From NCBI GenBank assembly GCA_038503065.1, contig JBCAMK010000014.1:1364001-1428000 (forward strand): 64,000 bases of DNA. The letters are read 5' to 3'. A program made the translations under genes and the position numbers. Positions 1 to 57,184 of this stretch are shown here, piece after piece. Source of the stretch: Paragyromitra xinjiangensis (lineage: Eukaryota > Ascomycota > Pezizomycetes > Pezizales > Discinaceae). The notes under the pieces are model-generated. The model was not told the DNA's origin. It worked only from the letters and a program-made list of their open reading frames with translations, and did not search any database. The stretch's first letter is position 1, and each line of letters begins with the position of its first letter.

Positions 1-1456
1 CTGATACTCCTTATCGTCTCGCTTTGGGCTGCTGACTAGCTCACCAAGTTGGTCTGACCTGACTTCGCACTTTGGGCAAGCGTTTTGCTGTAGGTTGTGA
101 AGTTGGATGTGCTCAGCGTGGTCAGCTATCCAAGCACAAAGGATTGGATAGCACATCCGATACTGAGCATCCCCACATACCAACATGACTCCTGTATGCC
201 CTGCCTTCCTCATATCCTGGAATAGGATACTCATCACCTCGTACAAGACCTCTCTATTAGCCTCCCGGCGGAGCCTATCCTCTCCACTGCGCCCAGCAAA
301 TTTGGGGGGGATAGGGAGTAGCGCCACGAGCATCATAGCCATATTCGTTGGCTTGTTTCGAATCTTAGAGGGGATATTCCCTATCGTCAGGTAGACTGGC
401 CAAGCTTTCTTATCGCCTGAAAAATTGGTGAGATGTGTACCATCCGACGCGCAGATTACTGGGACTACTGTAGCCCCATCAGGTAAGCTCCCCTGACAGT
501 GAGAATTAGCAGGATAATAGATATCCAGCAGCGAAGACTTGAAACTTCCTCCTTAGCCTCCTTAGCCTCCAGGGGAGCTATAGAGGCTATTGAGGAGTTT
601 GAGACTCCGCTGATAGAAGGGGGAGTTAGCTAACCTGTACATCCCACCACCAGTCTGCTGTATGCATCTCCGAGTACATTCTCTCGCCATTATCGTTGTA
701 TTCTCGAATGGGACGATAGACCATATCCTCTGCATATGCGGGCTGTTTAAGCAAATATTGGATACAAGCAAGCACGGGCCTAAAGTAATACCGTGCCGTC
801 CTTTTCCTAGTCCCTTCCATGACTTCACAGCTCCCCCGCTGCCATTGCGCCTGACCTAGATCCGGATCTATCCTGTCGAGGAGCTTGTGCATCGTGTAGG
901 CAGATCCAAATCCTGGCGTAGGAGTGCCTGCCGCAGGAGTGCAGAGCTCTTCGTTGAAATACTCATTAATACGGGTCTTCGCTATCCCGCTCTCTATCAT
1001 CCATCGGGCGAGCTTGAAGTCAAAGGCAGTCTCAAACGGGATATAGGGGTTCGAAAGAAGGAATTCGACGACCTCCTGACGACCCTCCACATCCCCCAAA
1101 GAGCATGCTGCACCAGTAAATTGAATGGACCTAGCACCAGACTTCTGTGGAGGCTCTGCAGCTGTGTCTGTATCCTCTGTATCGGATGGCGGAGGATGCT
1201 GGTCATCGTCCTCACTACCGCTCTCAGTGCTTCCACCGGAGGGCTCACTTCCTCCAGAGCTGACATCTTCCCAGTCGCTATCCGGATTATTTCTGCGCCA
1301 TGCCAGTGAATCACCATCCTCTTCGGATTCAGAGCCTCCATGGCTAACCTTTTGGGAGGCTTGCTTGGAATGCATATCCATTATGTGCTTCTGCAACGAA
1401 ACCACTGATTTGTAGGTGCGACGACACAGAGAGCAGCGTGTTCTTATAATCTCCAT
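1..1456 (-). CDS. Plavaka-like transposase, copy A (3' end outside window)
   Basis: DNA transposase of the Plavaka/CACTA-like kind, acting in the nucleus on its own element ends. Exon 1 (1456 to 635) begins with a C2H2 finger (CSLCRRTY...H...H near residues 8-29), then an acidic serine-rich linker and the conserved block ending ADWWWDVQ. A GTTAGC donor and an acceptor at 493 join exon 2 (492 to 1), which starts GSLPDGATVVPVIC and holds the family signature SDGTHLTNFSGDKKAW. The reading frame is open to the window edge. It is about 80 percent like copies B and C by eye. It runs divergently from the companion gene at 2042. The intron is longer than in copy B because of a small repeated CTCCTTAGC stretch. 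Family assignment is by recognised motifs, not by a search. Confidence 0.85.
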
Positions 1457-7640: not shown

Positions 7641-8340
7641 CTTGAAACAGTAATATCAAGTTGGTTTAGGAAGGATATATAGTATCGTGAGCTTAGGCAA
7701 GCTAGGAGAGAAGGTTGCAGAGGATGGAGGAGAGCGAGGAGGAAGCTGAAAAGGAGGAGAAGCAGGATTTGTTTGCCCTGGCAGCGTTTATGAGGTCATA
7801 TATGAGGTATTGATAGGATCTGTGCGCAGGCCAACCCTAACCCACACCGAATCCTCTAAGCGACGCCTGCACCTCCTATTTTAGGATTAGCCTACCCCCA
7901 TAGTTCAACCTCATATCAACACCCCCTGAACTCTGACGAGCAACAAACGAAAGCCTCCTACCTTTGCAAGCAGCAGAATCCTACTCTAGTGATCAATATC
8001 ACTCCACTTCAGCGAGTTACAGCATCCTACTCCCTTCCAGCATCCTACTCCCTCTCAGCATCCTACTTCTCCTCGGCATTAGCATCCCCGAGGCTGATTT
8101 CCAGCGATCGCCGCAAATCCTCCACGGGGCAACATTCCATTCCCGCGCAAGCTCTAGCCTGCATCCCCCTAATAGTGAGCAAATATCCTACTTTCTACCA
8201 GCGATTATCAGCATCCTAATTTTTCATAGCAAATATTAATATCGTACTTCCAGCAAGGGCATTCTACCGTTAAGCGAGCTCCAGCATCCATCCCTTAGCA
8301 TCTTGCTCCGCAGTTGATACACGGCATCCTTCAAGTTGAT
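7641..8340. promoter_or_regulatory. Divergent promoter spacer of element B
   Basis: Equivalent to 1457-2041. It holds the conserved CTCATATATGAGG/CTGTGCGCAGGCCAACCCTAACCC block (near 7790-7850) and at least three AGCATCCTAC(T) copies in tandem around 8028-8070. No gene seen. Confidence 0.5.
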
Positions 8341-11300
8341 ATGGAGGTTTCAAGATCCCGCTGCCAATTGTGCCGCCGCACCTACAGCTCAGCTCTGTCG
8401 TTGCATACTCACGTGATAGATATCCATCCTAAGCATGCCTCTATCGTATTTGGCCAAGGAGGCTCTCAATCCGAGGAGGATGAACGGGATGGTGCAGCAG
8501 GCTCATGGCGCAAACAGAATCCAGACAGCGATTGGGAAGATATCAGCTCCAACTCGGAAGGAGGCACATCATCGGATGGGAGCACTGCAGGCGGAAGTGA
8601 GAAGGATGACGAGAATCCTTCTGATACGGAGGATAATGACAGGAATACCAACACAGGGCCCATGCAGCTGCCTGGCCCAAGGATAATTCAATTTGCCGAT
8701 GCAGCGTGCTCTTTGGGGGATGTGGAGGATCATCGAGAGGTTGTCGAATTCCTCCTCTCAAACCCCTACGCTCCGTTTGAGACGGCTTTTGACTTCAAGC
8801 TCGGTAGGTGGATATTAGAGAGTGGGATAGCACAAACCCGCATCAACGAGTATCTCAACGAGGAGCTCTGCACTCCTACGCCAGGATTTAGGTCTGCCCA
8901 TACGATGTACAGACTCCTCGATAGGATAGATCCTGATTTAGGCCAAGCACACTGGCAGCGAGGGAGTTGTGAAGTCATGGAGGGGACGAGGAAAAGAGTG
9001 ACGTGGTATTACTTCAGGCCAATACTGGCCTGTATCCAATACTTCCTCAAACAGCCAGCATATGCCAAGGATATGGTCTATTGTCCAGTTCGAGAATACA
9101 ACAACAGCGGAGAGAGGATGTATTCTGAGCTGCATACAGCAGACTGGTGGTGGGAAATACAGGTTAGCTATTCCCTCCTACGTATCCATTATTCTGCTAA
9201 TTCTCGTGGCTAGGAAAGCTTACCTCACGGAGCCACGGTGATTCCAGTCATCTGCGGCTCGGATGGCACACATCTCACCAATTTCTCAGGTGATAAGAAG
9301 GCTTGGCCAATCTACTTGACGATAGGGAATATCCCTTCCGAAGTTCGAAATAAGCCAACGAATATGGCTATGATTCTCGTGGCGCTCCTCCCAATCCCTC
9401 CAAAGTTTACAAAAGACAATTCAATCAATAGACTCCGCCGAGAAGCCAATAGAGATATACTGCACGAGGTCCTCAGCATCCTTTTCAAGGATATGAAAGA
9501 GGCTGGGATGACTGGAATCCGATTAGCATGTGCGGATGCTCAGTACCGAATGTGCTATCCAATCCTTTGTGCTTGGATGGCTGACCACGCAGAGCATTGC
9601 CAACTCCACAACCTGCAGCAAAACGCCTGCCCAAAGTGCGAGGTCAAACCAGACCAACTTGGTGAGCAAGCCAGCAGCCCGAAACGAAACGATAAGGAGT
9701 ATCAGGAAGTGGCGCAATCCTTCGCCGATACTGGAGATCCTCAGGAGTTGGAGTATCTCGTCGAACGAGGGCTGAAAGCGCCATTCAACGTCTTTTGGGG
9801 GATGCCACACCTCCCTCGCGCTGGGGACCTCCACAAGCCAGACCTCCTACATAACATCTATCTCGGTTTATTGAAGCATCTGATGGAGTGGATAGAGAGC
9901 TTCCTTGAGAAACACAAGAGGCTGCAAGCATTTGACGAAGTCTGGATGTCGATACCCCCCTTCCCAGGCCTGGCTAGGCCAACTAAAGCCTATCGAGAGG
10001 TTTCCCAGTGGCAGGGCAAGGAGATGCGCAATCTCGGCCATATCCTTCTCGGAGCCTTTGCAGTTGCGCTGCTCCATCCGTCGAAGGATGAGCTATATCC
10101 TTTCAAGCGAGCTATCCTTTGCGTGCGGAGTTTTATCGATTTCCACCTTATGGCACAGTATCGGAGCCATACACCTGAAACCTTGCGATATATGGATCAA
10201 TACCTCGCCGACTTCCACCAGCATAAGGATATCTTCCTAGAATTCAGAGCCTCGAAGAAGGCAAGCGCAAAGGCACGGGCAACAGTCAAGCGCTTGAAGC
10301 TATCGCAGGATGCCCGACCTCCTCTTGCAGGATCAAGAAAAAGACGATTGGAGGATGCAGATAGGCTTGAAAGGAGAGAGCTACTCGTTGAAACGCAGCA
10401 GGAAGAAAGCCACTTCAACTTTCCAAAGATGCACCTCCTAATGCACTTCCATGAGCATGTTGAGCGGTATGGAGGGATCCCCATGTTTTCTACCGAGGTT
10501 GGGGAGACAGCACATCGGCAGCAGATCAAAGAAGGATATAGGGCATCCAATAAAATCGATTCGACGAAGCAAATCCTGCGCTACTATGCACGTCGACAAG
10601 CATTGGGTATGCGTATATTGAACCTCCGGGCCCTTTCTAGGGATGCTGAGCCTCCCAATTACGGGGATGCTGAGCCTCCCAATTCGCAGCTGCACAATAT
10701 CCTTAGGCCCAGACGATCCGAGATCCAACATATAGGAGAAAGAGCATCCCTCCGGCGATTATGTGGTCGACAAGCGAAGATTTCCCTTCTGCATGACATC
10801 ATCTCCCTAATGAATATTCCGGATCTACCGGAACGAATACTATATTACAGCAGTCAGAATTTGAAGGATGAGCGTCGTCTTGAGGAGGATACAGAGGCTC
10901 TTCTTACATACTCAGCTGAGATGTTCTCTCACCTTCGAGTCCCTGTGCCTATGTTTCAGCGGCCTGAGGAGTTTGAGCTTCATTGTGTGAGATGCACAGG
11001 GGAGCGAGCGTTTAGGGGTCGAGCTCCACGAAACGATTGGGTGTGGGTCCAGGTAGGAGACGAGAGCCAGTTTGGTGCTCTTCGAGGACGCCTTCCAGCC
11101 AAGGTGCTTTGCCTCTTTAAGATTCGAGATCCTCATACCGAGTACACACATCGGCTAGTCCTTGTGAGGATGCTACGAGCCTTTCCAGGTGGAGGTAGGA
11201 TTACGGACATCCATGGGATGGTGAGAGTATCTACTAGGCTGAAGGATGATCGATTCGTTGTGGGGATAAAGAATATCATGGGAATCGCGCATCTCATTCC

Positions 11301-11397
11301 CGAGCAGCCGGAGCTCCAGGAGAATAATACTAAATGGCTGGTCAACAACCGAATTGACCTTACAACGTTCAATGAGATATATACATTAGAGAATTGA
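8341..11397 (+). CDS. Plavaka-like transposase, copy B (intact)
   Basis: Full-length 1001-residue transposase in two exons (8341-9162 and 9214-11397), 51-bp intron with GTTAGC donor and TAG acceptor. I chose the ATG at 8341 because copies A and C start at the same MEV/MEI and the C2H2 finger follows at once (C8, C11, H24, H29). Further on are an acidic linker, the block CSLGDVEDHREVVEFLLSNP, ADWWWEIQ, then the core: SDGTHLTNFSGDKKAW, DAQYRMCYPILCAWMADHAE, a CPKCEV knuckle, and HKPDLLHNIYLGLLKHLMEW. These are the regions where Plavaka/CACTA DDE residues lie; I do not assign the triad exactly. It is the only copy here with no stop or frameshift, so it may be, or recently was, active. GDAEPPNY is duplicated near 10651-10690. 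Confidence 0.9.
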
Positions 11398-11947: not shown

Positions 11948-14900
11948 TAGATACTCTCACCATCCCATGGATGCCCGTAATCCTCCCTCCACCTGGAGAG
12001 GCTCGTAGCATCCTCACAAGGACTAGTCGATGTGTATACCGTGTATGAGGATCTCGAATCTTAAAAAGGCAAAGCACTTTGGCTGGAAGGCGTCCTCGAA
12101 GAGCGCCAAACTGGCCCTCGTCTCCTACCTGGACCCACACCCAATCGTTTCGTGGAGCCTGACCCCTAAACGCTCACTCCCCTGTGCATCTCACACGATG
12201 AAGCTCAAACTCCTCAAGTTGCTGGAACTTCGGCACAGGGACTCGAAGGTGAGAGAACATCTCAGCTGGGTATGTAAGAAGAGCCTCTGTATCCTCCTCA
12301 AGACGACGCTCATCCTTCAAATTCTGACTGCTGTAATATAGTATTCGTTCTGATAGATCCGGGATATTCATTTGGGAGATGATGTCATGCAGAAGGGAAA
12401 CCTTCGCCTGTCAACCACACAATCGCTGGAGGGATGCCCTTTCTCCTGTATGTTGGACCTTCGATCGTCTGGGTTTAAGGATATTGTGCAGCTGCGAATT
12501 GTGAGGCTCGGCATCCCCATAATTGGGAGGCTCAGCATCCCTAGAAAGGGCCCGGAGGTTCAATATACGCATACCCAATGCTTGTCAACGTGCGTAGTAG
12601 TGCAGGATTTGCTTCGTCGAATCGTTTTTGTTGGATGCCCTATATCCTTCTTTGATCTGCTGCCGATGTGCCGTCTCCCCAACCTCGGTAGAAAACATGG
12701 GGATCCCTCCATACCGCTCAACGTGCTCATGGAAGTGCGTTAAGAGGTGCATCTTTGGAAAGTTGAAGTGGCTTTCTTCCTGCTGCGTTTCAACGAGTAG
12801 CTCCCTCCTCTCAAGCCTATCTGCATCCTTCAATCGTCTTTTTTTGGATCCTGTAGGAGGAGGCCTGGCATCCTGCAATAGCTTCAAGCGTTTGACTGTT
12901 GCGCGTGCCTTTGCGCTTGCCTTCTTGGAAGCTGTGAATTCTAGGAAGATATCTTTATGCTTGTGGAAGTCGGCCAGATACTGGTCCATATATCGCAAGG
13001 TTTCAGGTGTATGGCTCTGATACTGTGCCATAAGGTGGAAATCGATAAAACTCCGCACGCAAAGGATAGCTCGCTTGAAAGGATATAGCTCATCCTTCGA
13101 AGGATTGAGCAGCGCAACTGCAAAAGCCCCGAGAAGGATACGGCCGAGATTGCGCATCTCTTTGCCCTGCCACTGGGAAACCTCTTGATAGGCTTTAGTT
13201 GGCCTGGCCAGGCCTGGGAAGGGGGGCATCGACATCCAGACTTCGTCAAATGCTTGCAGCCTCTTGTGCTTCTCGAGGAAGCTCTCTATCCACTCCATCA
13301 AATGCTTCAATATACTGAGATATATATTATGCAGGAGGTCTGGCTTGTGGAGGTCTCCAGCGAGAGGGAGATGTGGCATCCCCCAAAAGACGTTGAATGG
13401 CGCTTTCAGCCCTCGTTCAGCAAGATACTCCAATTCCTGAGGATCCCCAGTATCGGCAAAGGATTGAGCCACTTTCTGATACTCCCTGTCGTTTCGCTTT
13501 GGGCTGCTGATGAGCTCACCAAGTTGGTCTGGCCTGACTTCGCACTTTGGGCAAGCGTTTTGCTGTAGGTTGTGGAGTTGGCAATGCTCTGCGTGGTCAG
13601 CCATCCAAGCACAAAGGATTGGATAGCACATTCGGTACTGAGCATCCGCACATGCTAATCGGATTCCAGTCATCCCAGCCTCTTTCATATCCTTGAAAAG
13701 GATGCTGAGGACCTCATATAGTATATCTCTATTGGCTTCTCGGCAGAGCCTATTGGTTGAATTGTCTTTGGTAAACTTTGGAGGGATCGGGAGGAGTGCC
13801 ACGAGAATCATAGCCATATTCGTTGGCTTATTTCGAACTTCGGAAGGGATATTCCCTATCGTCAAATAGATTGGCCAAGCCTTCTTATCACCTGAGAAAT
13901 TGGTGAGATGTGTGCCATCCGAGCCGCAGATGACTGGAATCACCGTGGCTCCGTGAGGTAAGCTTTCCTAGCCACCAGAATTAGCAGAATAATAGATATT
14001 TGGGAGCAAATAGCTAACCTGTACTTCCCACCACCAGTCTGCTGTATGCAGCTCAGAATACATCCTCTCTCCGCTGTTGTTGTATTCTCGAACTGGACAA
14101 TAGACCATATCCTCGGCATATGCTGGCTGTTTGAGCAAATATTGGATACAGGCCAGTATTGGCCTGAAGTAATACCACGTCACTCTCTTCCTCATCCCTT
14201 CCATGACTTCACAACTCCCTCGCTGCCAGTGCGCTTGGCCTAAATCCGGATCTATCCTATCAAGGAGTCTGTACATCATATGGGCAGACCTAAATCCTGG
14301 CGTAGGAGTGCAGAGCTCCTCGTTGAAATACTTGTTGATACGGGTTTTTGCTATTCCACTCTCCATCATCCACCTAGCGAGCTTGAAGTCAAAAGCCGTC
14401 TCAAATGGAGTGTATGGGTTTGAAAAGAGGAATTCGACAACCTCCTGATGATCCTCCACATCCCCCAAAGAGCCTGCTGCATCGGCAAATTGAATTACCC
14501 CTGGGCCAGACAGCTGCATGGGCCCTATACTAGTATTCACGTCATTATCTTCCATATCAGAAGGATTCTTGTCATCCTTCTCACTTCTGCCGGCAGTGCT
14601 CACTTCTGCCGGCAGTGCTCACTTCTGCCGGCAGTGCTCACTTCTGCCGGCAGTGCTCCCATTTGACGATGTGCCTCCTTCTGAGTCAGAGCAGATATCT
14701 TCCCAGTTACTGTCTGGATTCTTTTTGCGCCATGAACCAACTGTTGCACCATCCTGTTTATCCTCTTCGGATTGGGAGCCTCCTTGACCAAATACGATGG
14801 AGGTATGCTTAGGGTGGATATCCGCCATGTGGGTATGTAATGATATAGCTGAGCTGTAGGTGCGGTGGCACAGTGGGCAACAGGATCTTGAAACCTCCAT
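11948..14900 (-). pseudogene. Plavaka-like transposase, copy C (decayed)
   Basis: Close copy of the gene at 8341-11397, minus strand. Exon 1 is 14900-14019 and exon 2 starts at 13967. Lesions seen by alignment with copy B: a TGA inside a fourfold 19-bp repeat (14619-14621), and three CGA-to-TGA changes at 12585-12587, 12411-12413 and 12174-12176. The last ~45 codons are replaced by the inserted sequence at 11947. The rest is co-linear and open (C2H2 finger, SDGTHLTNFSGDKKAW, HKPDLLHNIYLSILKHLMEW). All three point stops are C-to-T at CpG, as expected from deamination of methylated cytosine or a RIP-like process. The divergent partner starts at 15558. Confidence 0.85.
14581..14656. repeat. Perfect 19-bp tandem repeat, 4 copies, inside transposase C
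   Basis: TCACTTCTGCCGGCAGTGC repeated four times. Copies A and B have one equivalent unit. Three extra units (57 bp) keep the downstream frame, but the shifted phases introduce a stop at 14619-14621. Confidence 0.95.
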
Positions 14901-47587: not shown

Positions 47588-49081
47588 ATGTCTGACTCTG
47601 TGCCTCGCAACCATCCAATCGATGAAGAACATGATGGAAATTATCCAATCGACGAGGCGAATGATGTAAACACCGCTCAGCAAGAACTTGTGTTAGATCA
47701 ACATCCAAGCTTGGTTCTAGGCAACGATAATAGTATCATAGAGGTTGTGCAGAGAACACCCACCTTGTCACTATCCACAGAAGTATGTCCTCCACGATTA
47801 AGCGCGTGGCGATGTTAAAGCTAACGTTTTTATCCAGCGGAGTTTCCAGCACAGAAATACCACCAGTACTACCCAGGCGACCACTAAAGTAGGTAAAGAA
47901 AACGCTAGCCGGTCTAAACCTAACGCCCGACCGCCACCTAGCAGCATAATGCCAAACACTGGGAGAGATTCTGTCTACCAGGATACTACAAGTAGCACTC
48001 CTAAAAATGTCCCCGTCCCTCGTGAAGCATCGGTACACAACGGAAGGTTCAGCCAGCAGAAGGTGTTCGTCCAGGGTCGTGGGGGGTCTATCCCTCGGGC
48101 CGCTCGCTTCCAAGCTGACGCTACACAAAAAGGTATCCGTACCAGTACACGAGCAACATCAAAACTAGCCGTTAAAGGAGACGTTGGCCCGCCGCCAGGC
48201 TCGAGTAGGCCTGCCAGCCGTGGCGGCAGTGCCCTTGTGGGTCGGGTTACTCCCCATAGGTACTCAGAGCGCATCATACGGAGTACGGCGCCAGTTGTCC
48301 AAAATTCTGAAGAGGGATGCAGCTCTGCCGCTACCCCAGATATCGTCGACGACAGCGGCAATAACACCACGGGTCCCAGTAAAAAGCAACAGGGCAGAGA
48401 TCGCGATAAGTCTGCCTTAGCTCTAGCTATAAGTGCACCAATCACCGTCACAGTTCCACACAAGAGGAGACCGTTGCTGATACATACTGTATTTCTCTCC
48501 TTGAACAAAATCTGGCATGACACTTGGGTCAAGCTGGGGCCTAGCCGAGGTCGGCACCTCTTGTCTATGCGCTTCTCACGCTGGGGTAGGGTGTACTTCT
48601 CTAGCGTCGTCCGCGAGGTGAGAGCGGATGAAAAAGAAGAGGTTATGATTCTCCTCAACAATGTATTCTGCGTCATCGCTCAACAGCTGGGTAGGTGTCT
48701 TGGTATATATTCAAGATCTTTGACTGTCTAGCTAATGCATTTAGGGCAGCGGAATGTATGGAACTAGTTGGGATGGAAAAAGGAGACGCAGATTGGAGTG
48801 TAATTGATGCTTTCTTGGAGGAAGCAGAGGAGGATGAAATAGAAGTGGGCAACGACAAAGAAATTTCCCAGGAGATCGAGGACCAGGGGAATATGGAGAA
48901 TGGGGAAGGGAATGAGCAGGCCAGGGGTGGTGGTGCAAAGAAAGATCGAGCGGACGAGAAGGATGAGGAGAATGAGGAGTTGGGAGAGGTTGAGAAACGA
49001 CTGAACCCCCTTTTTGAGAGCCTAAAAAGTCAAGTTGAGGTGCTAGAGTTACGGCGGCCTATAGCGACCATCCCGCCATAA
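47588..49081 (+). CDS. Host gene of unknown function, last exon interrupted by transposon
   Basis: Three exons: 47588-47782, 47838-48694, and 48745 onward. Intron 1 has GTATGT, branch CTAAC and CAG; intron 2 has GTGTCT, branch CTAAT and TAG. Residues 1-250 are disordered, with Ser/Arg/Gly. A compact conserved-looking part follows: FLSLNKIWHDTWVKLGPSRG, MRFSRWGRVYFSSVVREVRA, LLNNVFCVIAQQLGRAAECM, then an acidic DWSVIDAFLEEAEEDE and a Glu/Asp/Lys-rich tail. The transposon entered at codons LE of QVEVLE; the frame now ends inside the element's inverted repeat (LRRPIATIPP then TAA at 49079), giving 462 residues. Without the element it would continue from 57141 to a stop at 57182-57184 (466 residues). 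So the product may survive with a swapped tail. No known domain. Confidence 0.7.
49043..49049 (+). repeat. 7-bp target duplication, left copy
   Basis: CTAGAGT immediately before the left inverted repeat, identical to 57134-57140. Removing the element and one copy restores an open host exon. Confidence 0.9.
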
Positions 49082-49095
49082 TTCAGAAAGTCAAA
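49050..49095 (+). repeat. Left terminal inverted repeat (46 bp)
   Basis: Begins TACGGCGGCCTATAGCGACC and ends AGAAAGTCAAA. Identical to the complement of 57088-57133. Beyond it the arms remain loosely similar (C-rich then A-rich). Confidence 0.95.
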
Positions 49096-49455
49096 TTTAC
49101 CCGAAACCACCCCAAAAAAAATATTTCCCAAAACCACCAGTATGATAAATATAATACACTAGAATACCCCAGGAGTATACTAGGACACATCAGCAAGTGA
49201 AATCACACCAAAACTGCCGCCGAGACGGCCGAGTGATATCCCATGATTCTTGTGTTTGTGATTTTTTTAATTTATGAAGACTGCATCAAAAAATCTGAAT
49301 AAATCAGGATAAATACTTTAAGATATAACAAGTAGATTCCCGCTTTCGTTCATGGGTTTTGAAGGCTTGGCGAAAACGCGATTTGATTTTGAGTGGAGAT
49401 TGTAAGCTATTATGAAAAAAATACACCTGCTAGACCTATACCCCTCTTCTCCTAA

Positions 49456-50956
49456 CTACTCCTCATCCTCTAAAACATATTCCTCACTTTTAATCTCGCC
49501 CTGAGCCCCTCCCTTTGCCTTTGCTTTCCCCTTTCCCAATTTTTTCCCCTCTACTGTGTCTTGAATCAAGTCCAAGTCTAAAACAATGGGTTCAGTAGGA
49601 GCATTCTCACAATCACAGGGTTGGTACTTTCTCCCCTCCTCAATCCAATCCTCGGTAGCAAAGTTCATAGCCTCTGCTAAATTCCAACCACTATTAATAC
49701 CTGAGTGGTAGGCCCCTGGAAATAGTACCATCATATCTCCTTTTTCCTGAGTAAATTGATGACATGGATAGCCACATTTCACCCAATCCTCAGGTGTTAA
49801 AGGAGGAGCAGAAAGCACAAAACCCTCATGACGAAGAGCTTGGGGGCAGGTGGTTAAGGTGAGTTCTGGTATAGTAGCTACAAAATTATATTAGCAAAAA
49901 TTAAAAATTAAAATAGGAGATATACCTTTAGCTTGAGCTACAAATCTATGCATGGAATGACCAGGAATAACATGCCAGATTTTCGGAGCCCCATCCAATA
50001 AAGTATTTGCAGAATGACAGTGATAATCTTCCACATGCCAGGAAAAGGCTGTACCTGGTTGTCCAAAATAGACATAGGGGGTGGTAATACCAGGTATAAA
50101 AGTCAGGCCAGGTGTCAGAAGCAGGTTAAACTCGTCATCAAATAGAGAGGTCCTGCTTTGCTCCATAGAAACCAAATGGGCTAAAAAATGTTAGTAAAAT
50201 TAAATATTAAGAAAATTGGTATATCAAGTACTTACTTTCAGTGTCAACCCCATAAAAGCGATTTTGTGAACTCCCTTTCTCCTCCACCTCTTTTGCAACC
50301 TGTGCCCAAAACTCCTGCATTGTACCAATGTATTCAAAATCCTCCTTTTTAACCATATGAGAATGCCAAAGGGACATGGGCTTTTTTTTGGGTAAAAAGG
50401 CAACCCTGTAAGCCTTGCTACCATTAGGGGCGTTACATTCCAGCTCTTCAAACACCTGTTGCCTAACATCCAACCTGATAGTGCTAAGTGGCTTGGAACT
50501 GGGTACATGGTACCAGGGATTGCCAGACTCAAGAGAAGGAAGATGCAACTTTAAAGCTCCATAATGACGTCCAAGTTGTGAAAGGATTTGCAGTAGCTTG
50601 GGGAAGTTCTCAAGACCATAGGGGGTGACAGTAATAGAGGGTGGGTGAAGGGTATTGGGATGGTGAATGGTAGCATATTGAGCAGGAATAAGGTGAAATC
50701 TGAATGGCCTGGGAGTGTAGGGATCTGGCAACAAAGTAGAACTCTGTGCGTCAGGTAGATTGATAGGCAATTTACCTAAGAAATAGTTATTATATGATAA
50801 AATTTAATGAAGGTAGAGGGGTGAAATACCAGTAAGAAGGGCTCTGGAAACCTGATTATATTTCCGCTTTTTTTGGAGTTTGAGGAGATCAGTCCCCTCT
50901 TTGACAGGTCTTTCTTTATTTTTGATAGACTGAGGAGTATAGTTGATAAAACTCAT
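49456..50956 (-). CDS. Transposon-borne KDM4-like JmjC histone lysine demethylase
   Basis: 447 residues from four exons (50956-50830, 50775-50236, 50180-49926, 49877-49456), all joins in frame with GT/AG and short introns. A JmjC Fe(II)/2-oxoglutarate oxygenase: GITTPYVYFG, then SWHVEDYH supplies iron ligands H271 and E273. N281 and K289 (APKIWHVIP) sit where KDM4 binds 2-oxoglutarate, and the third ligand H365 lies in FPGAYHSGINSGWNLAEAMN, followed by NFATEDWIEEGR. This is the KDM4/JMJD2 pattern almost motif for motif, so H3K9/H3K36 tri-methyl removal is the best guess. After it comes a CDC pair that may be a relic of the KDM4 zinc site. The C-terminus is Lys/Gly/Glu-rich. No PHD or Tudor domains, and no clear JmjN, so shorter than cellular KDM4. 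The start at MSFINYTPQ follows no better ATG in frame. It lies inside the transposon and is transcribed towards its left end. Confidence 0.9.
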
Positions 50957-51099
50957 GATGGCAGATGGTGGATGATAATATAAAATTGTGGTTGTGGTTG
51001 AGGTTGAACAGAGTGGGAAAAGATAAGGTGGAAAATGACAACACATACTCCTCTTTTACTAGATATGGTATGGAGTGGCGCATTTTTTTTAGTTACCCT

Positions 51100-52320
51100 A
51101 CCTACTTTAACCTTATGTCCTCACTTACCTAAAAAGGTAAATGAGGACTTTCACATAGTGGCGGGTTTTTTTTAGTTACCCTACCTTATCTTATTATGCT
51201 CATACTACATATTATTTAGCTGGCGGGTTTTTTTTGCATTTATTATTAAAGGGCCTATTAGGTGTCCTCATTTACCTAAATAGGTAACTGAGGACTTTTA
51301 TATAGTGACGGGTTTTTTTTAGTTACCCTACCTTACTTTAATATGCCCCTGGTATTAATTATTTAGCTGGCGGGTTTTTTTTGTATTTATTATTAAAGGG
51401 TCTACCAGGTGTCCTCAGTTACCCAAATAGGTAACTGGGGACTTACACATAGTGGCGGGTTTTTTTCAGTTACCCTACCTTACTCTGTCATGCTCCTAGT
51501 ACCTATTATTTAGCTGGCGGGTTTTTTTTGATTTAATGTATAAGGTGTCCTCAGTTACCCAAATAGGTAACTGAGGACTCTAATATAGTGACGGGTTTTT
51601 TTTAGTTACCCTACTTTATCCTACAATGCCACTAGTACCTGTAATTTAGCTGGCGGGTTTTTTTTGTATTTATTATTAAAGGGTCTACTAGGTGTCCTCA
51701 GTTACCCAAATAGGTAACTGGGGACATGTCCATAGTGACAGGTTTTTTTTAGTTACCCTACCTTATCTTATCCTGTTTCTAGTACCTATTATTTAGCTGG
51801 CGGGTTTTTTTTGTATTTATTATTAAAGGATTTATCAGGTGTCCTCAGTTACCCAAATAGGTAACTGGGGAATTACACATAGTGGCGGGTTTTTTTTTAG
51901 TTACCCTACTTTATCCCACTATGCCACTAGTACCTGTAATTTATCTGGCGGGTTTTTTTTCATTTATTATTAAAGGGTCTACCAGGTCCTCAGTTACCCA
52001 AATAGGTAACTGAGGACTTCTACCTGCTGGCGGGTTTTTTTAGTTACCCTACCTTACCTTGTCATGCTCTTACTAGATGTAATTAAGCTGGCGGGGGTTT
52101 TTCTCATTTTTGTATAAAATGTCCTCATTTACTTAAATAGGTAACTGGGGACTTGTTAGATTGTAACGAGGTTTTTTTATAGTTACCCTACCTTTCCGCA
52201 CATGTCCTCAGTTACTTGAATAGGTAAATGAGGACTTATTACATAGTACCGAGTTTTTTCTCAGTTACCCTACCTTTTTCTACCTGCCCTCAGTTACTAA
52301 ATTAGGTAACTGATATCAAA
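51100..52320. repeat. Array of ~10 hairpins in ~146-bp tandem units
   Basis: Between the JmjC and transposase genes. Each unit holds a palindrome GTCCTCAGTTACC-(6 nt)-GGTAACTGAGGAC at about 51117, 51263, 51411, 51547, 51693, 51841, 51986, 52121, 52203 and a weaker one at 52286. Units also hold two GGCGGGTTTTTTTT tracts and AGTTACCCTACC. Spacing is 135-148 bp, then ~82 bp at the right end. Compensating changes keep several arms paired (CAGTTACC with CATTTACC). It may bind transposase, form cruciforms, or act as promoter or boundary of the JmjC gene. Not CRISPR: eukaryotic, palindromic, no unique spacers. Confidence 0.9.
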
Positions 52321-52351
52321 TAAAATAAAATAAATAAACAAAAATTCTACA

Positions 52352-54203
52352 TTAATCCTCTAATCTATTCCCAATATCTTCTGCCAGCATATTCTCTTCC
52401 TCGTGATCTCCTTCAAGCATATCTTCTTCATCAATTTCTAGCATCAAATCCTCCCCAATATTTGATGGTGTCCAATCATAAGCTTGAGAAGGAACCTCAG
52501 AGAGGCCTAAATATCCTCCTTTGTCAAAAAATTCCAGTATAGCTACCCGTAAATGACAATAGGCTTTTAATTGTGGGGATACATTAACAGTGCTTGGGCC
52601 ATAATTATCTTGAGAAGATATCGCTAGCAATGTAGGAAGTTGAATTTTTGTTGCTTCTAATTCTTCTTTGCACCATCTTATTGTTTCAGTTGGTAGGTAT
52701 TCGTCTGGGTCTATGATTAATTAGTTAATTATTTAAAATAACTATAAGCATATAACATGATATTTACCATATCCTTCAAGCTCTTTTCGTAACTCTGATA
52801 TCAACTCAACTGGTGGAATCTGGCCATAATCTTTAATTCCCTCTGGTGGTGTATGATACATAACCAGTGGTTTACCAGTTGGTAAATAAGTGCGACTGTG
52901 TTGGGCTCGAATTCTATGTGCATTCCACAATTTTGCAAACTCATAAATCTCCTGACGAATAATAGGAAGATATACATATAATAATGCAATTTTACATGGT
53001 GCATTATCAGTAAATAGACCTGAATCCCGAAGATGGTCCAAATGAGTCTATTGTTTTCTTAGTTATTGTTTTGCTTATCTTTTTACTATGCACTTACCTT
53101 CCATGTAATTGTCTGGCTTTTACTCATCTGACGCCACCAACTTTCAATTCGAACATTAAGAGTTGAAGTACCAAACCAATAAACTTCATTGAATTTGACG
53201 TCCAGATCTAGAGCTTGATGTAGCTTCCAATGTGCATTGGCCATCATTGGAGTTTCAGTACCTCTATCAGACCTGATTGCACGGGGTAAAATGCCTGTAT
53301 CTTCAATTGCATCAAGATATTGACATAATACGGCGACTGCAGTTCTAGTGGAAATCCCAACATGTATCCAAGTAATAAACCTGGTTCATGGCCATGTCAT
53401 TAGTCAAGATTAAAATCTTGGTAAGACAGTGAGTTGGTTACCGTGAATACCCATCAATAGCCGCATAGATCTCGATCCCATACATACTCATCTTATGATG
53501 ACCATCAACTGACCACAGAAAATTTGGGCCAGGTACTGTGTATGTACTACGTGGCGTCTTCTGTAAACCGAAAGGGCGCTGTTGAACCCCAGCTGGATCC
53601 AACTCGCGTAGGATGGTATACATTCGATCACGGGCTACTGGAAGCCCACTTTGTCTTAAAAACTGATATGAAAGACTTCGGCCATAAAGCACGCTTTGAC
53701 CCGATTCAAGTTGCATTTTTAGTGCATGTCTCATAGCTGTATTGTGAGCTGTAAAATTTTGTCTCTCACTACGCCTAAACATGCCACATGCAAGTCTAAA
53801 TCGGATCATTCTATGTGCCATCAGTAATTAAAAAAGTAATGAAAATTGTGGCTTCTTACGTTCTTTTGGTAATTGCTGTGTTATCCTTGTTGATGAATCC
53901 CATGATCTCATCATCATTGAGACCATAGGTGTAAAACAGGACCCACAGACGTTGCATCAATTGATTTTTTTGTACTTCATTAAGTGGCATATTTCGTTTT
54001 TGGAAATCAGAACCCCATGACTGGATTGCTCGCTCTAGTGTGCGCAAAGATGGGTAGTCAGGCCGAGTAGTATTAACGATTTCTGGATGATGCTCATGCA
54101 AAAGATCCCGTGTTATCTGAAGGGAGTGGTTATCTGCGATATACCAAGACCAAATGACAGTCTTGTAAGGTTCTAAGGAAAATGCTGGTCGTCCTGCAGG
54201 CAT
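52352..54203 (-). CDS. Integrase-like DDE transposase of the JmjC transposon
   Basis: 544 residues from five exons (54203-53860, 53810-53442, 53380-53098, 53047-52768, 52710-52352), all joins in frame. The N-terminal 110 residues look like a helix-turn-helix DNA-binding region (MPAGRPAFSLEPYKTVI, LRTLERAIQSWG). A linker helix region is followed by the rve-type catalytic core: NFLWSVDGHHKM gives D217, AIRSDRGTE gives D276, and FGTSTLNVRIESWW gives E317 (40 residues between the last two). IDGYSR and WNAHRIR are also typical of eukaryotic integrase-like transposases. The C-terminus is acidic (EIDEEDMLEGDHEEE). No frameshift or stop seen, so it may be functional. The start was chosen as the first ATG before conserved GRP.FSLEPYK. 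Confidence 0.88.
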
Positions 54204-54420
54204 GTTGGGTGTAGATTGAAGTTAGAAAGATGGGTATTATAGAAGGGGCATGGAAAAATATCTTGTTATGATTAAGGGGCCAGCTTGTCTTTAAATACTT
54301 AAATTTCATGACCATCTCCTACTAATCTTCTTCATTAGCAAACACGATCCCCGAGTCCTCCCAGTCTTCTCACTCAAATTTCACAATTCCATCAAACTGT
54401 CTTTCTTCTTATACTATATC

Positions 54421-56849
54421 ATGTCACAACAAGAATATTGTCCAGCTTGTACTCATGCTTTATCCCGAAAACCTAGTTCAATTTTTCCCTTTTGTGGTAG
54501 CTGCAGAGTTCAACTTTATTGTTATACCTATGGCTATAGGCGTGCAGTGGTCTCCCTGTTACCCTACCTACGTAGGGAGTTACCCTACCTTCCATTTGGT
54601 CACCTTCCCGTCTTCGTTGGACCCCTCAGTGGCTGCCTATTGACTTCCCAGCCTATTCTCAGGCAGTTACCCTGCCTTCCCCGGTTACCCGGCCGTTACC
54701 CTGCCTTCGGTTGCGCTGCTGGCAGCGCTGGATCGAGAAGGGGGGACACCCGCAAAATATCCGCGTCCCGGAGACTAAAAGTAACCCTTTGGTCGTCAAC
54801 GGCGCCCTTCCCGCGGAACGTGACCCGGAGGGTATGTATGAGAGGTCTTCATAGGGCAACTTGGGGCGCCGAGTCACGTGGGCTATTCGGATTAGTCATC
54901 AGAGGTCTCCTGCCTGCGCTACGGGGCTCCAAACACCAGCTGTCGCAACAAAACGATATCGTGTAACCACCTACTCGATCGGGCGAACGCAACCGTCGCA
55001 ACCGTATCATTGCCACGTCGAACCGAGGCGATCTGAGGATTACTGAACGAGGGGTAAGCGTCGGAAGTTGGAGATATCGAACTGAGATAGGATGTCGGAT
55101 ACATGGATAAGCGAGCTAGCACAATTTGTGGTAGTAGATAGTTCACTCGGTCGACCCAAGCTACAAAGAACACACACAGTAGTAAAGAGGACGGGATATA
55201 AATACTCTTGCATTGGACGTCAATTCTAGTCGATCATCATCGAGGAAGAACGAGCGCTATCAATATTATTTTGTTACCAACATACTTTGTTCCGTGATAA
55301 ATTCTCCATCGTATCGAGTTGTTTAGCGTAGATAGCCGCTTCAACACTCGTGTCCTTCCTATTGAGAAAGTTCTTTCAACGGAACAGCCCGACCCTTATC
55401 TCGCTTAAACTATTATTATTCTTTGTGCGGTTCATAAGAAGTTGTCAGGACGTGCGCTCGGGTATTGTGCTACGGATAGTAGCCGGTCGAGTTACAGAGT
55501 CTAGAGAGCTATCTAAAGCTTCGCTTAGAATTCAGTAGTGGTGCGAAGTACCGGTCTTACATTTATAATGATAAAGATGAAAGTCCTGCCATGGTAACTA
55601 TAGGTACTTCCAGTAGTACATTATCTAACGTAGCTACAACTGCAACTTCTGCACCACCTACTCCTTATTTTCAGCGCCGTGAATCTTTTGCTCTACTTAA
55701 AGCTGGAGGAGCAGTTGAGATAGTTAATGCTGCACGGAAATCTGGTAAAAGGAATACTGGTTTAGAAATCCGTAACTCTTCACCATCTTTAAGGCAAAAT
55801 CCTGCCATATCAACTCGATTTATACGTCGCATTCAACTAGTTCATGGCCCTGCGGGCCAACTGAATATCAACTACCGAAAATTCAAAATAATACCTGGTA
55901 CTGATTTATGGTATCCTAGTGATACTCTCTTAGATCAAGAGATCTATCCTGACGAATTTTCTTGGACTCAAGTGCTGTGGAGTATGCTTATTGAAAGCAA
56001 TCTTACAATATGGAAGGAGTTTACTCGTTATCAATGGAAGATGTTTGGACAAGGTATGTATTTGCATCTGTATTTATTTTTTTAATTATTACTATAGTAT
56101 TCTGACGCCTTTAAACATAGCTGGACCTGTTCCAGATAGATGTCAAATTATTTCCAATTGGAATGCACATGCTGGACCCGACTATCTTGGAGATGCCATA
56201 GCTCAACCTATAACCCTTCGAAAATTGCTTACAGAGAATTTTCCATACGACTCAACCAACCCTAAAGACAAAAAATTAGGTCCTCCAATTGTCCCAATCT
56301 TATTTGAGTACCGTTTAGATGATGACTCTGAGTCACAACGTGAGAAAGCTAAGATTGTTCTCTCTAAAGGACATCTTAAGTCCACCAAAAACTCACATAA
56401 GTCAGCATCTGTTGTGAAGTTTTCAACCAATACCAATGACGATAGTGGGCAAGTGGAAACTTTTTCTTTAGATAGTACAGATAACGAATCAACAATTCCG
56501 GATCCCAGTCCTAATTACACTTCTGGAAATGGGCCACAATTGATAGAGGATGATCAAAAGACAGATGATACTCAGGTTTTGGAGTCGGAAACTGAAGATA
56601 GAGGGAACTTCCAAGGGAAAGATACTGTATTGTCATCGTCTACCCATAATAGAAAGGTAATATATCTTCTAGTTAATCAAATCTAAACTGCATACTAATT
56701 TACTTTATCTTTAGCGTTCTTATTCTATTATTAAGTCACCATCTCCAGTTGAATCAAGGGTGCAATCCTCAGAACACCCTGTCCCTCCTCCTGTGGGTCA
56801 GATAGTTAAAAAAACTAGATCTGGAAGATTATTTTATGTTTCTGGTTGA
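54421..56849 (+). pseudogene. Zinc-ribbon companion gene of the JmjC transposon, split by a solo LTR
   Basis: Exon 1 begins 54421 with a zinc ribbon (YCPAC at C7/C10, FCGSC at C25/C28). At 54519 a 1042-bp LTR plus 5-bp duplication interrupts it; coding resumes in the same frame at 55567. Later joins are 56053/56121 (GTATGT, TAG) and 56656/56715 (GTAATA, TAG); stop 56847-56849. Without the LTR it would encode 418 residues: zinc ribbon, Ser/Thr-rich linker, a conserved-looking block (LVHGPAGQLNINYRKFKIIP, DLWYPSDTLLDQEIYPDEFS), PVPDRCQIISNWNAHAG, an acidic linker, and a basic tail KKTRSGRLFYVSG. It is divergent from the transposase (218 bp between starts). Unknown function; perhaps a DNA-binding partner. 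As it stands, translation from 54421 would run into LTR sequence. Confidence 0.75.
54520..55561 (+). mobile_element. Solo LTR (1042 bp) with TTTAT target duplication
   Basis: Starts TGTTATACC and ends GGTCTTACA (5'-TG...CA-3'), flanked by TTTAT at 54515-54519 and 55562-55566. No internal retroelement domain is adjacent. The last ~390 bp reappear inverted at 63609-64000. The first 200 bp are rich in GTTACCCTRCC motifs. It could be read in either direction; orientation is given only by TG...CA symmetry. Confidence 0.85.
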
Positions 56850-57087
56850 TGGTTTCGGGAAAGTGGTGGGTAGCTTTAGGATATATGGAAAGAGCTTGGA
56901 GGGTTTTGGGGGTTTTTTTCTAACTATTAGCGTCTCGCTTCATGAATTATCACTCGGGGGTTTTTTCATTGTTATTTTATTTGTATGGGATTTTGTATCA
57001 TGTGTCATGGTTTTCTAAAGGGCAGTTATTTTTTTTCTTATTTTGGAAGTGGTTCTGTGATTTTTTTTTCGGGGGGTGAATTCAAAT

Positions 57088-57133
57088 TTTGACTTTCTGA
57101 ATTATGGCGGGATGGTCGCTATAGGCCGCCGTA
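57088..57133 (-). repeat. Right terminal inverted repeat (46 bp)
   Basis: Complement of 49050-49095 without mismatch; followed directly by CTAGAGT (57134-57140). Confidence 0.95.
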
Positions 57134-57184
57134 CTAGAGTGCTTGAACTCGACCATAGTTATGGGAAGTTCTCCAAGGCGCTGA
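57134..57184 (+). pseudogene. Displaced 3' end of the interrupted host gene
   Basis: Begins with the right CTAGAGT copy. In the pre-insertion frame it reads LE-CLNSTIVMGSSPRR then TGA (57182-57184). It is now separated from the rest by the 8.1-kb transposon. Confidence 0.65.

Follow-up and report, generated by a model that had tools for sequence, protein, structure and literature searches.

An IS3EU-like DNA transposon of Paragyromitra xinjiangensis carries a KDM4-like JmjC gene, a putative anti-silencing factor

Why does a fungal cut-and-paste transposon carry, next to its transposase, a gene that resembles those of histone demethylases? The question is raised by a stretch of 64,000 nucleotides from the genome of the ascomycete Paragyromitra xinjiangensis (assembly GCA_038503065.1, contig JBCAMK010000014.1), referred to below as the window. 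Bare numbers are positions in the window, while C-prefixed names denote contigs of the same genome (48.2 Mb, 22 contigs), in which the window is C14:1364001-1428000. The element under study is a DNA transposon of 8084 bp (49050-57133) that encodes a JmjC protein, a DDE transposase and a third protein. Without a 1042-bp solo long terminal repeat (LTR) it measures 7042 bp, or 7037 bp if the extra copy of the target-site duplication (TSD) of the LTR is also removed. The terminal inverted repeats (TIRs) are located at 49050-49098 (forward strand, beginning with TACGG) and 57085-57133 (reverse strand, ending with CCGTA). They pair perfectly over 46 positions, mismatch at position 47 and match again up to position 49, thus at two of the next three positions. 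The 7-bp TSD CTAGAGT is present on both sides (49043-49049 and 57134-57140), so that the perfect 46-bp TIRs and the 7-bp duplication given in a preliminary description of this DNA, made from the letters alone, were both recovered. Two more near-full copies elsewhere in the genome, each with both the JmjC and the transposase gene (now broken) and with TSDs of their own, identify the element beyond chance as a genuine mobile unit, and several insertions with TSDs show that the family is mobile. An empty paralogous site was also sought, but none was found: besides the window locus itself, the joined flanks hit just a piece of C2, weakly and at 74%.

The JmjC gene (49456-50956, reverse strand) is composed of four exons (50830-50956, 50236-50775, 49926-50180 and 49456-49877) separated by introns of 48-55 bp, all with GT-AG borders, and encodes 447 amino acids without a stop. 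The protein matched the Pfam JmjC domain (E = 1.9e-24), and its best matches among proteins of solved structure were KDM4-type, the top one reaching 110.7 bits. Whole-protein scores were 102-111 bits for KDM4/RPH1, 90 bits for plant JMJ14 and 75-85 bits for KDM5. For the C-terminal half, 36 of the 37 distinct solved sequences matched at E <= 1e-25 were KDM4/JMJD2/JHDM3 or RPH1; the remaining one (2w2i) is named '2-oxoglutarate oxygenase' and is KDM4-type by match. The iron and 2-oxoglutarate residues of KDM4 are present, namely H271, E273, H365, N281 and K289, exactly as the preliminary description had stated for a gene that it called intact, together with Y217, whose position was set by eye outside the stretch aligned to solved structures. 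For these residues we assume the numbering and roles of KDM4A. The KDM4-type zinc residues C318, H324, C395 and C397 are present as well, aligned with C, H, C and C positions of KDM4D that we take to be zinc ligands. At a site that differs between KDM4A and KDM4D, the element has A377-M378 and is thus nearer to KDM4D (A-I) than to KDM4A, which presumably has S-T there. A structure prediction for the JmjC part from a single sequence (exon 3, read-through intron 3 and exon 4) had a mean predicted local distance difference test score (pLDDT) of 30.3 and was not used.

In a protein database, the whole JmjC protein had one match among 3997 candidates, a 746-amino-acid protein of Alternaria burnsii with 31% identity, and the JmjC domain alone matched none of 79 candidates; the length window of this search leaves out longer KDM4 proteins, and the result therefore says little on spread. 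No relatives of either the JmjC protein or the transposase were found in viral contigs. In the host genome, a JmjC protein encoded by a single open frame of 637 amino acids at C3:2986406 (L025) is 35.3% identical to that of the element over 156 columns, and does not resemble the KDM4 and KDM5 types of the host.

The transposase gene (52352-54203, reverse strand) has five exons (53860-54203, 53442-53810, 53098-53380, 52768-53047 and 52352-52710) and encodes 544 amino acids without a stop, in agreement with the integrase-like DDE transposase described as intact at the outset. Across the JmjC and transposase genes, introns are 48-61 bp long with GT-AG borders. Pfam matches of the transposase were rva_4 (E = 3.5e-32) and rve (E = 7.1e-8), and its relatives are animal and fungal proteins of PF24764.

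To what extent the JmjC gene travels with this transposon was evaluated on the copies in the genome. A search with the initial 101 bases of the transposon gave 18 places, corresponding to eight elements with both TIRs and two single ends; as counts from an end search these are lower bounds. Three of the elements are long, i.e. the window copy, C20:1395215-1415701 and C18:1315330-1341059, the latter two being enlarged by nested insertions. All three contain both the transposase and the JmjC gene. The five short elements (1255, 1461, 2289, 1513 and 1383 bp) yielded no blastn match longer than 60 bp to the genes of the element and look non-autonomous; the one of 2289 bp includes a solo LTR copy. 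The question posed in the preliminary description, whether elements with the same TIRs always contain JmjC, thus received a divided answer, JmjC being absent from the short elements, which are also without transposase, and present in every long one. Of the single ends, the one at C16:1164262 belongs, as left end, to a shortened copy carrying JmjC exon 4, and at C20:9811 the match was confined to the TIR. A JmjC relic with stops, detected by protein search only, lies at C16:232.8-233.5 kb; neither a transposase match nor a TIR like those of the element was found within 8 kb. Genome-wide, 12 rows were obtained for the JmjC family PF02373, five within the element family (window, C18, two for C20 and the shortened C16 copy) and seven elsewhere, none of these seven nearer than ~54 kb to any of 28 transposase matches. 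Within what was searched, the JmjC gene accompanies this one transposon family only.

The long copies differ in their integrity. Over 49400-51000, the C20 copy differs from the window copy by seven substitutions, one of which lies upstream of JmjC, and a deletion of 2 bp puts its JmjC out of frame. JmjC of the C18 copy carries H271D, is split by ~15 kb and is further interrupted. The transposase has one premature stop each in C20 and C18 and is intact in one of the three. Both genes are intact in the window copy alone, whose third gene is broken; the third gene is also broken by insertion in C20, and it is the only intact gene of the C18 copy, so that no long copy has all three genes intact.

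A sister family without JmjC was present in the same genome. Its representative (L015, C18:1468395-1473289) is 4895 bp long and has the TSD CTAGGT; its TIRs measure 71 nt (87%) and at their start nearly equal the TIRs of the window copy. Four stretches of the two transposases are 49%, 65%, 45% and 32% identical. The third gene is also present, but JmjC is absent from the sister locus (10 kb, tblastn at E <= 1e-3). JmjC is likewise lacking in a second sister copy on C7 (L024), which was analysed except for its right end and shows an identity of 96.8% over 4726 bp. That the sister family has the other two genes but not JmjC indicates that one lineage either acquired or retained it. Moreover, with JmjC-bearing and JmjC-less sisters of similar termini in one genome, it becomes testable whether a transposon profits from a histone demethylase of its own.

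The ends of both families were compared with those of IS3EU transposons, for which TA..TA termini (TAYGG..CCRTA in fungal families), TIRs longer than 30 bp and a TSD of usually 6 bp are described in PMC12730594. Termini were TACGG..CCGTA in the window copy, the C18 copy and the sister element, and TATGG..CCGTA in the C20 copy, and TIRs exceeded 30 bp both here and in the sister. TSDs measured 7 bp (window), 6 bp (C20) and 7 bp (C18) for the long copies, 6 bp for the sister L015, and 6 bp (L018), 5 bp (L019) and 5 bp (L021) for short elements, with none for the short element L020. The element was filed as an IS3EU-like cut-and-paste DNA transposon. A 14-bp direct repeat, the right-hand copy of which is longer by one base, borders the short element L017 (C16:214933-216187); for IS481 relatives, TSDs near 15 bp have been reported (PMC10045372).

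Older JmjC copies were used to evaluate whether the gene has been under constraint, by simple one-step counts without correction. Compared with the shortened C16 copy, the window gene showed 9 synonymous and 8 nonsynonymous differences over 134 codons (81.7 and 320.3 sites; ratio of nonsynonymous to synonymous differences per site, pN/pS, 0.23; Fisher p = 0.002). Compared with the C16 relic, which may never have been part of a transposon, there were 46 synonymous and 56 nonsynonymous differences over 203 codons (127.3 and 481.7 sites; pN/pS 0.32; p = 9e-10). These comparisons suggest past purifying selection on JmjC, and given that both old copies are now dead and that some of the change is thus neutral, the true constraint would be stronger. 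The ratios argue that JmjC functioned for some time, be it to the advantage of the element or not.

Between the JmjC and the transposase gene, upstream of JmjC, lies a tandem array of ~1.2 kb (51080-52320), not mentioned in the preliminary description, with a spacing of mostly ~147 bp. It contains nine copies of a 56-nt core, a 32-bp palindrome (GTCCTCAGTTACC...GGTAACTGAGGAC) and the motif GTTACCCTACCT. Searched against the genome, a 301-bp piece of the array returned 22 rows, of which 20 fell within the three long copies and the remaining two were 33-bp matches on C14 and C4; the sister locus was not among them. With up to three mismatches, a palindrome pattern derived from the array itself returned 57 rows, 50 in the three arrays and seven (five sites) elsewhere, compared to none for the reversed control. 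Allowing at most one mismatch, the window contains 15 occurrences of GTTACCCTACCT versus 0.26 expected; the array accounts for 10 of them and the solo LTR for 4, with 1 located elsewhere. As a lead, the position of the array before the JmjC gene, on its upstream side, would suit a promoter or a site of recruitment. Lone palindromes outside the family were located at L029 (~2029-2061), L030 (~1476-1508), C6:508213, C10:1267080 and C16:1548962; the surroundings of those in L029 and L030 show little match to the element past the palindrome itself. The solo LTR holds four copies of the motif GTTACCCTRCCT, which also fills the array of the element.

Traces of silencing were sought in the mutation record of the three long copies. 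The comparison covered eight aligned stretches with 5620 sites in total, excluding the array and the LTR, and the base common to two of the three copies was taken as the older one. C-to-T changes had occurred at 29 of 624 CpG positions versus 34 of 6024 other cytosines (odds ratio 8.6, p = 3e-14), a scar that is the trace expected from cytosine methylation. CpA-type repeat-induced point mutation was considered as cause of the decay and rejected, with C-to-T changes at 10 of 748 CpA positions compared to 15 of 684 CpT and 9 of 576 CpC positions (each counted in three copies). In three of the five short elements, the CpG bias was not clear (14 of 274 versus 50 of 1597, p = 0.10). The host has candidate genes for H3K9 methylation (Pre-SET, two matches) and for DNA methylation (cytosine methylase, four rows).

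What, then, might the JmjC protein do? We give about even chances to the reading that an IS3EU-type transposon carries a KDM4-like JmjC protein as a putative anti-silencing factor for its own copies. The protein would strip a repressive histone methyl mark from copies of the element, the first candidate being trimethylated lysine 9 of histone H3 (H3K9me3) and the second one trimethylated lysine 36 (H3K36me3). DNA methylation in fungi can depend on H3K9me3; removal of this mark would also reduce the DNA methylation that depends on it, and the transposase would then be expressed long enough for transposition. The JmjC protein would act in trans, with the palindrome array upstream of its gene as a candidate recruitment site. 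In favour of this reading are the anatomy of the element, the occurrence of JmjC in every long copy, the match to KDM4 proteins with retained catalytic and zinc residues, the low pN/pS against the two older copies, the CpG scar, the silencing genes of the host, and the precedents of TET/JBP transposons and VANC.

Several results weigh against such an anti-silencing role. JmjC is intact in one of the three long copies only, and in comparison with the C20 copy it displays 1 synonymous and 3 nonsynonymous differences (ratio 0.83), by which constraint is not seen, the differences being too few. A JmjN domain was not detected in the JmjC protein: Pfam JmjN gave no match at E <= 1, and local similarity to the host JmjN was no better than that of shuffles (931 of 2000), though a diverged form may be present; a JmjN assignment was rejected as unproven, shuffles scoring alike. 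In a small, weakly supported tree of six sequences, the JmjC protein branches outside both the KDM4 and the KDM5 types (local support 0.87). The CpG record points in the same direction. C-to-T changes at CpG numbered 4 in the window copy, 18 in C20 and 7 in C18 despite the presence of JmjC; the same bias towards CpG was present in five pieces of solo LTR (21 of 678 versus 9 of 1567); and of 66 transitions in the JmjC-less sister pair, 30 were at CpG (89 differences in all, unpolarised and without a statistical test). A JmjC-dependent difference in the scar was thus not seen among long copies, LTRs and the sister pair, and the family is probably methylated like other elements. The scar record is still compatible with JmjC action in short bursts of activity.

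The designation KDM4-like, used in the preliminary description, accordingly holds for the best matches and the residues, but neither for JmjN nor for the position in the tree, and we file the protein as KDM4-like rather than as an established KDM4. The host possesses a KDM4/RPH1 gene of its own (C10:1304415), which has the JmjC core and the same catalytic residues and in which, unlike in the protein of the element, JmjN is visible by eye. It is 52.0% identical to the solved chain 2w2i over 152 columns and 36.5% identical to the element's protein over 159 columns. By this low identity and the branching outside KDM4, the JmjC gene is no recent copy of the host KDM4, and the possibility raised earlier that it would group with the cellular gene of the host was not borne out for KDM4 in the small tree.

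Its decay in two of three copies, the mobility of the sister family without it, the absence of a visible CpG-scar difference and the 1-to-3 count against C20 would all be consistent with JmjC being a passenger, captured once and of no help to the element, with a constraint that predates the capture or reflects a short recent life. We consider this rather unlikely in view of the low pN/pS against two older copies, one of which still bears the element's own TIR, and because the transposase is no better kept, decay thus not being special to JmjC. Somewhat less probable again is a protein aimed at another target, i.e. H3K36 methylation, the choice of integration sites, repair of the excision gap or a non-histone substrate, or one acting without catalysis like Epe1 of fission yeast, for which a non-enzymatic role has been proposed (PMC7192584). 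The undetected JmjN and the tree position would suit such a protein, but the iron, 2-oxoglutarate and KDM4-type zinc residues appear to favour catalysis. That JmjC is kept for its benefit to the fungus, with the transposon as a mere vehicle, seems very improbable to us: the C16 relic, free of TIR and transposase in its surroundings, might be taken for a copy settled in the host, but it is broken by stops, so that a domesticated copy is not known, and the host already owns a KDM4.

Regarding the anti-silencing reading, TET/JBP and JmjC proteins share Fe(II)/2-oxoglutarate chemistry. Fungal DNA transposons of many lineages, including IS3EU, encode TET/JBP dioxygenases that are proposed to counter methylation-based silencing (Kojima 2025, PMC12730594), a role that JmjC would fill here. 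As described there, the TET/JBP-bearing IS3EU elements resemble ours in being fungal, in their TIRs of more than 30 bp, TAYGG..CCRTA ends and ~6-bp TSD, and in having a captured eraser of Fe(II)/2-oxoglutarate type as well as a further gene opposite the transposase. They differ in that the eraser is TET/JBP rather than JmjC histone-demethylase-like, and that it lies between transposase and alpha-kinase, whereas JmjC lies outside the pair formed by transposase and third gene; the latter, moreover, gives no sign of an alpha-kinase, an identity that was tried and rejected for lack of a Pfam match at E <= 1. The main text of PMC12730594 has no occurrence of JmjC, and in its introduction, transposons of oomycetes that carry SET methyltransferases are mentioned. 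In the P. xinjiangensis genome, four Tet_JBP rows were obtained (C6:1157158, C15:1341155, C1:3431858 and C12:824328), two of them over the family cut-off; the contigs that contain long copies had none.

Two further systems invite comparison. With the VANDAL elements of Arabidopsis (PMC5735166), the element shares its nature as a DNA transposon, an additional gene (anti-silencing in VANDAL) and noncoding tandem motif arrays; the targets of VANC in VANDAL elements form tandem repeats. However, VANC anti-silencing is shown experimentally there, whereas ours is a prediction, and JmjC belongs to an enzyme family. A bolder version, in which the KDM4-like eraser and a near-private landing array of its own would focus demethylation on the element's own copies, making it a fungal counterpart of VANC that one lineage evolved and that its sister family in the same genome lacks, is in our view doubtful. 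Endogenised giant viruses of Amoebidium (PMC11244446) likewise contain divergent, multi-exon KDM4-like JmjC genes without companion domains in a DNA-methylating host, but those are giant virus insertions in a protist rather than a small TIR transposon in a fungus. Among the open-licence papers listed, with most subscription journals and Repbase reports outside their range, no DNA transposon with a JmjC gene was found. The preliminary description pointed to no described fungal transposon with this combination, and it left the closest precedent, TET/JBP IS3EU elements (PMC12730594), unnamed. A histone-acting eraser on a fungal DNA transposon appears to be new relative to the DNA-acting TET/JBP kind, and if the element is a true carrier of a histone demethylase, this would suggest that transposons attack the histone arm of silencing beside DNA methylation.

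The third gene (54421-56849, forward strand) is divergent from the transposase gene and had been missed in the preliminary description. The first residues of its protein are zinc-ribbon-like by eye. In the window copy, the gene is broken by the solo LTR (54520-55561, forward strand; TG...CA ends, TSD TTTAT) inserted in it; in the C18 copy, there is no LTR at that site and the frames read through. Third-gene relatives of ~26% identity lie equally divergent beside the transposase of the sister family.

Elsewhere, the window contains Plavaka transposase open reading frames (PF18759) at 8314-11397 on the forward strand (E = 4.6e-56 for 9238-11394 and 1.9e-16 for 8314-9210). By eye, 12585-13943 (reverse strand) is a near-identical partial Plavaka copy, and 626-1456 (reverse strand) resembles Plavaka 8314-9213. 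HET-domain genes gave four matches in the genome.

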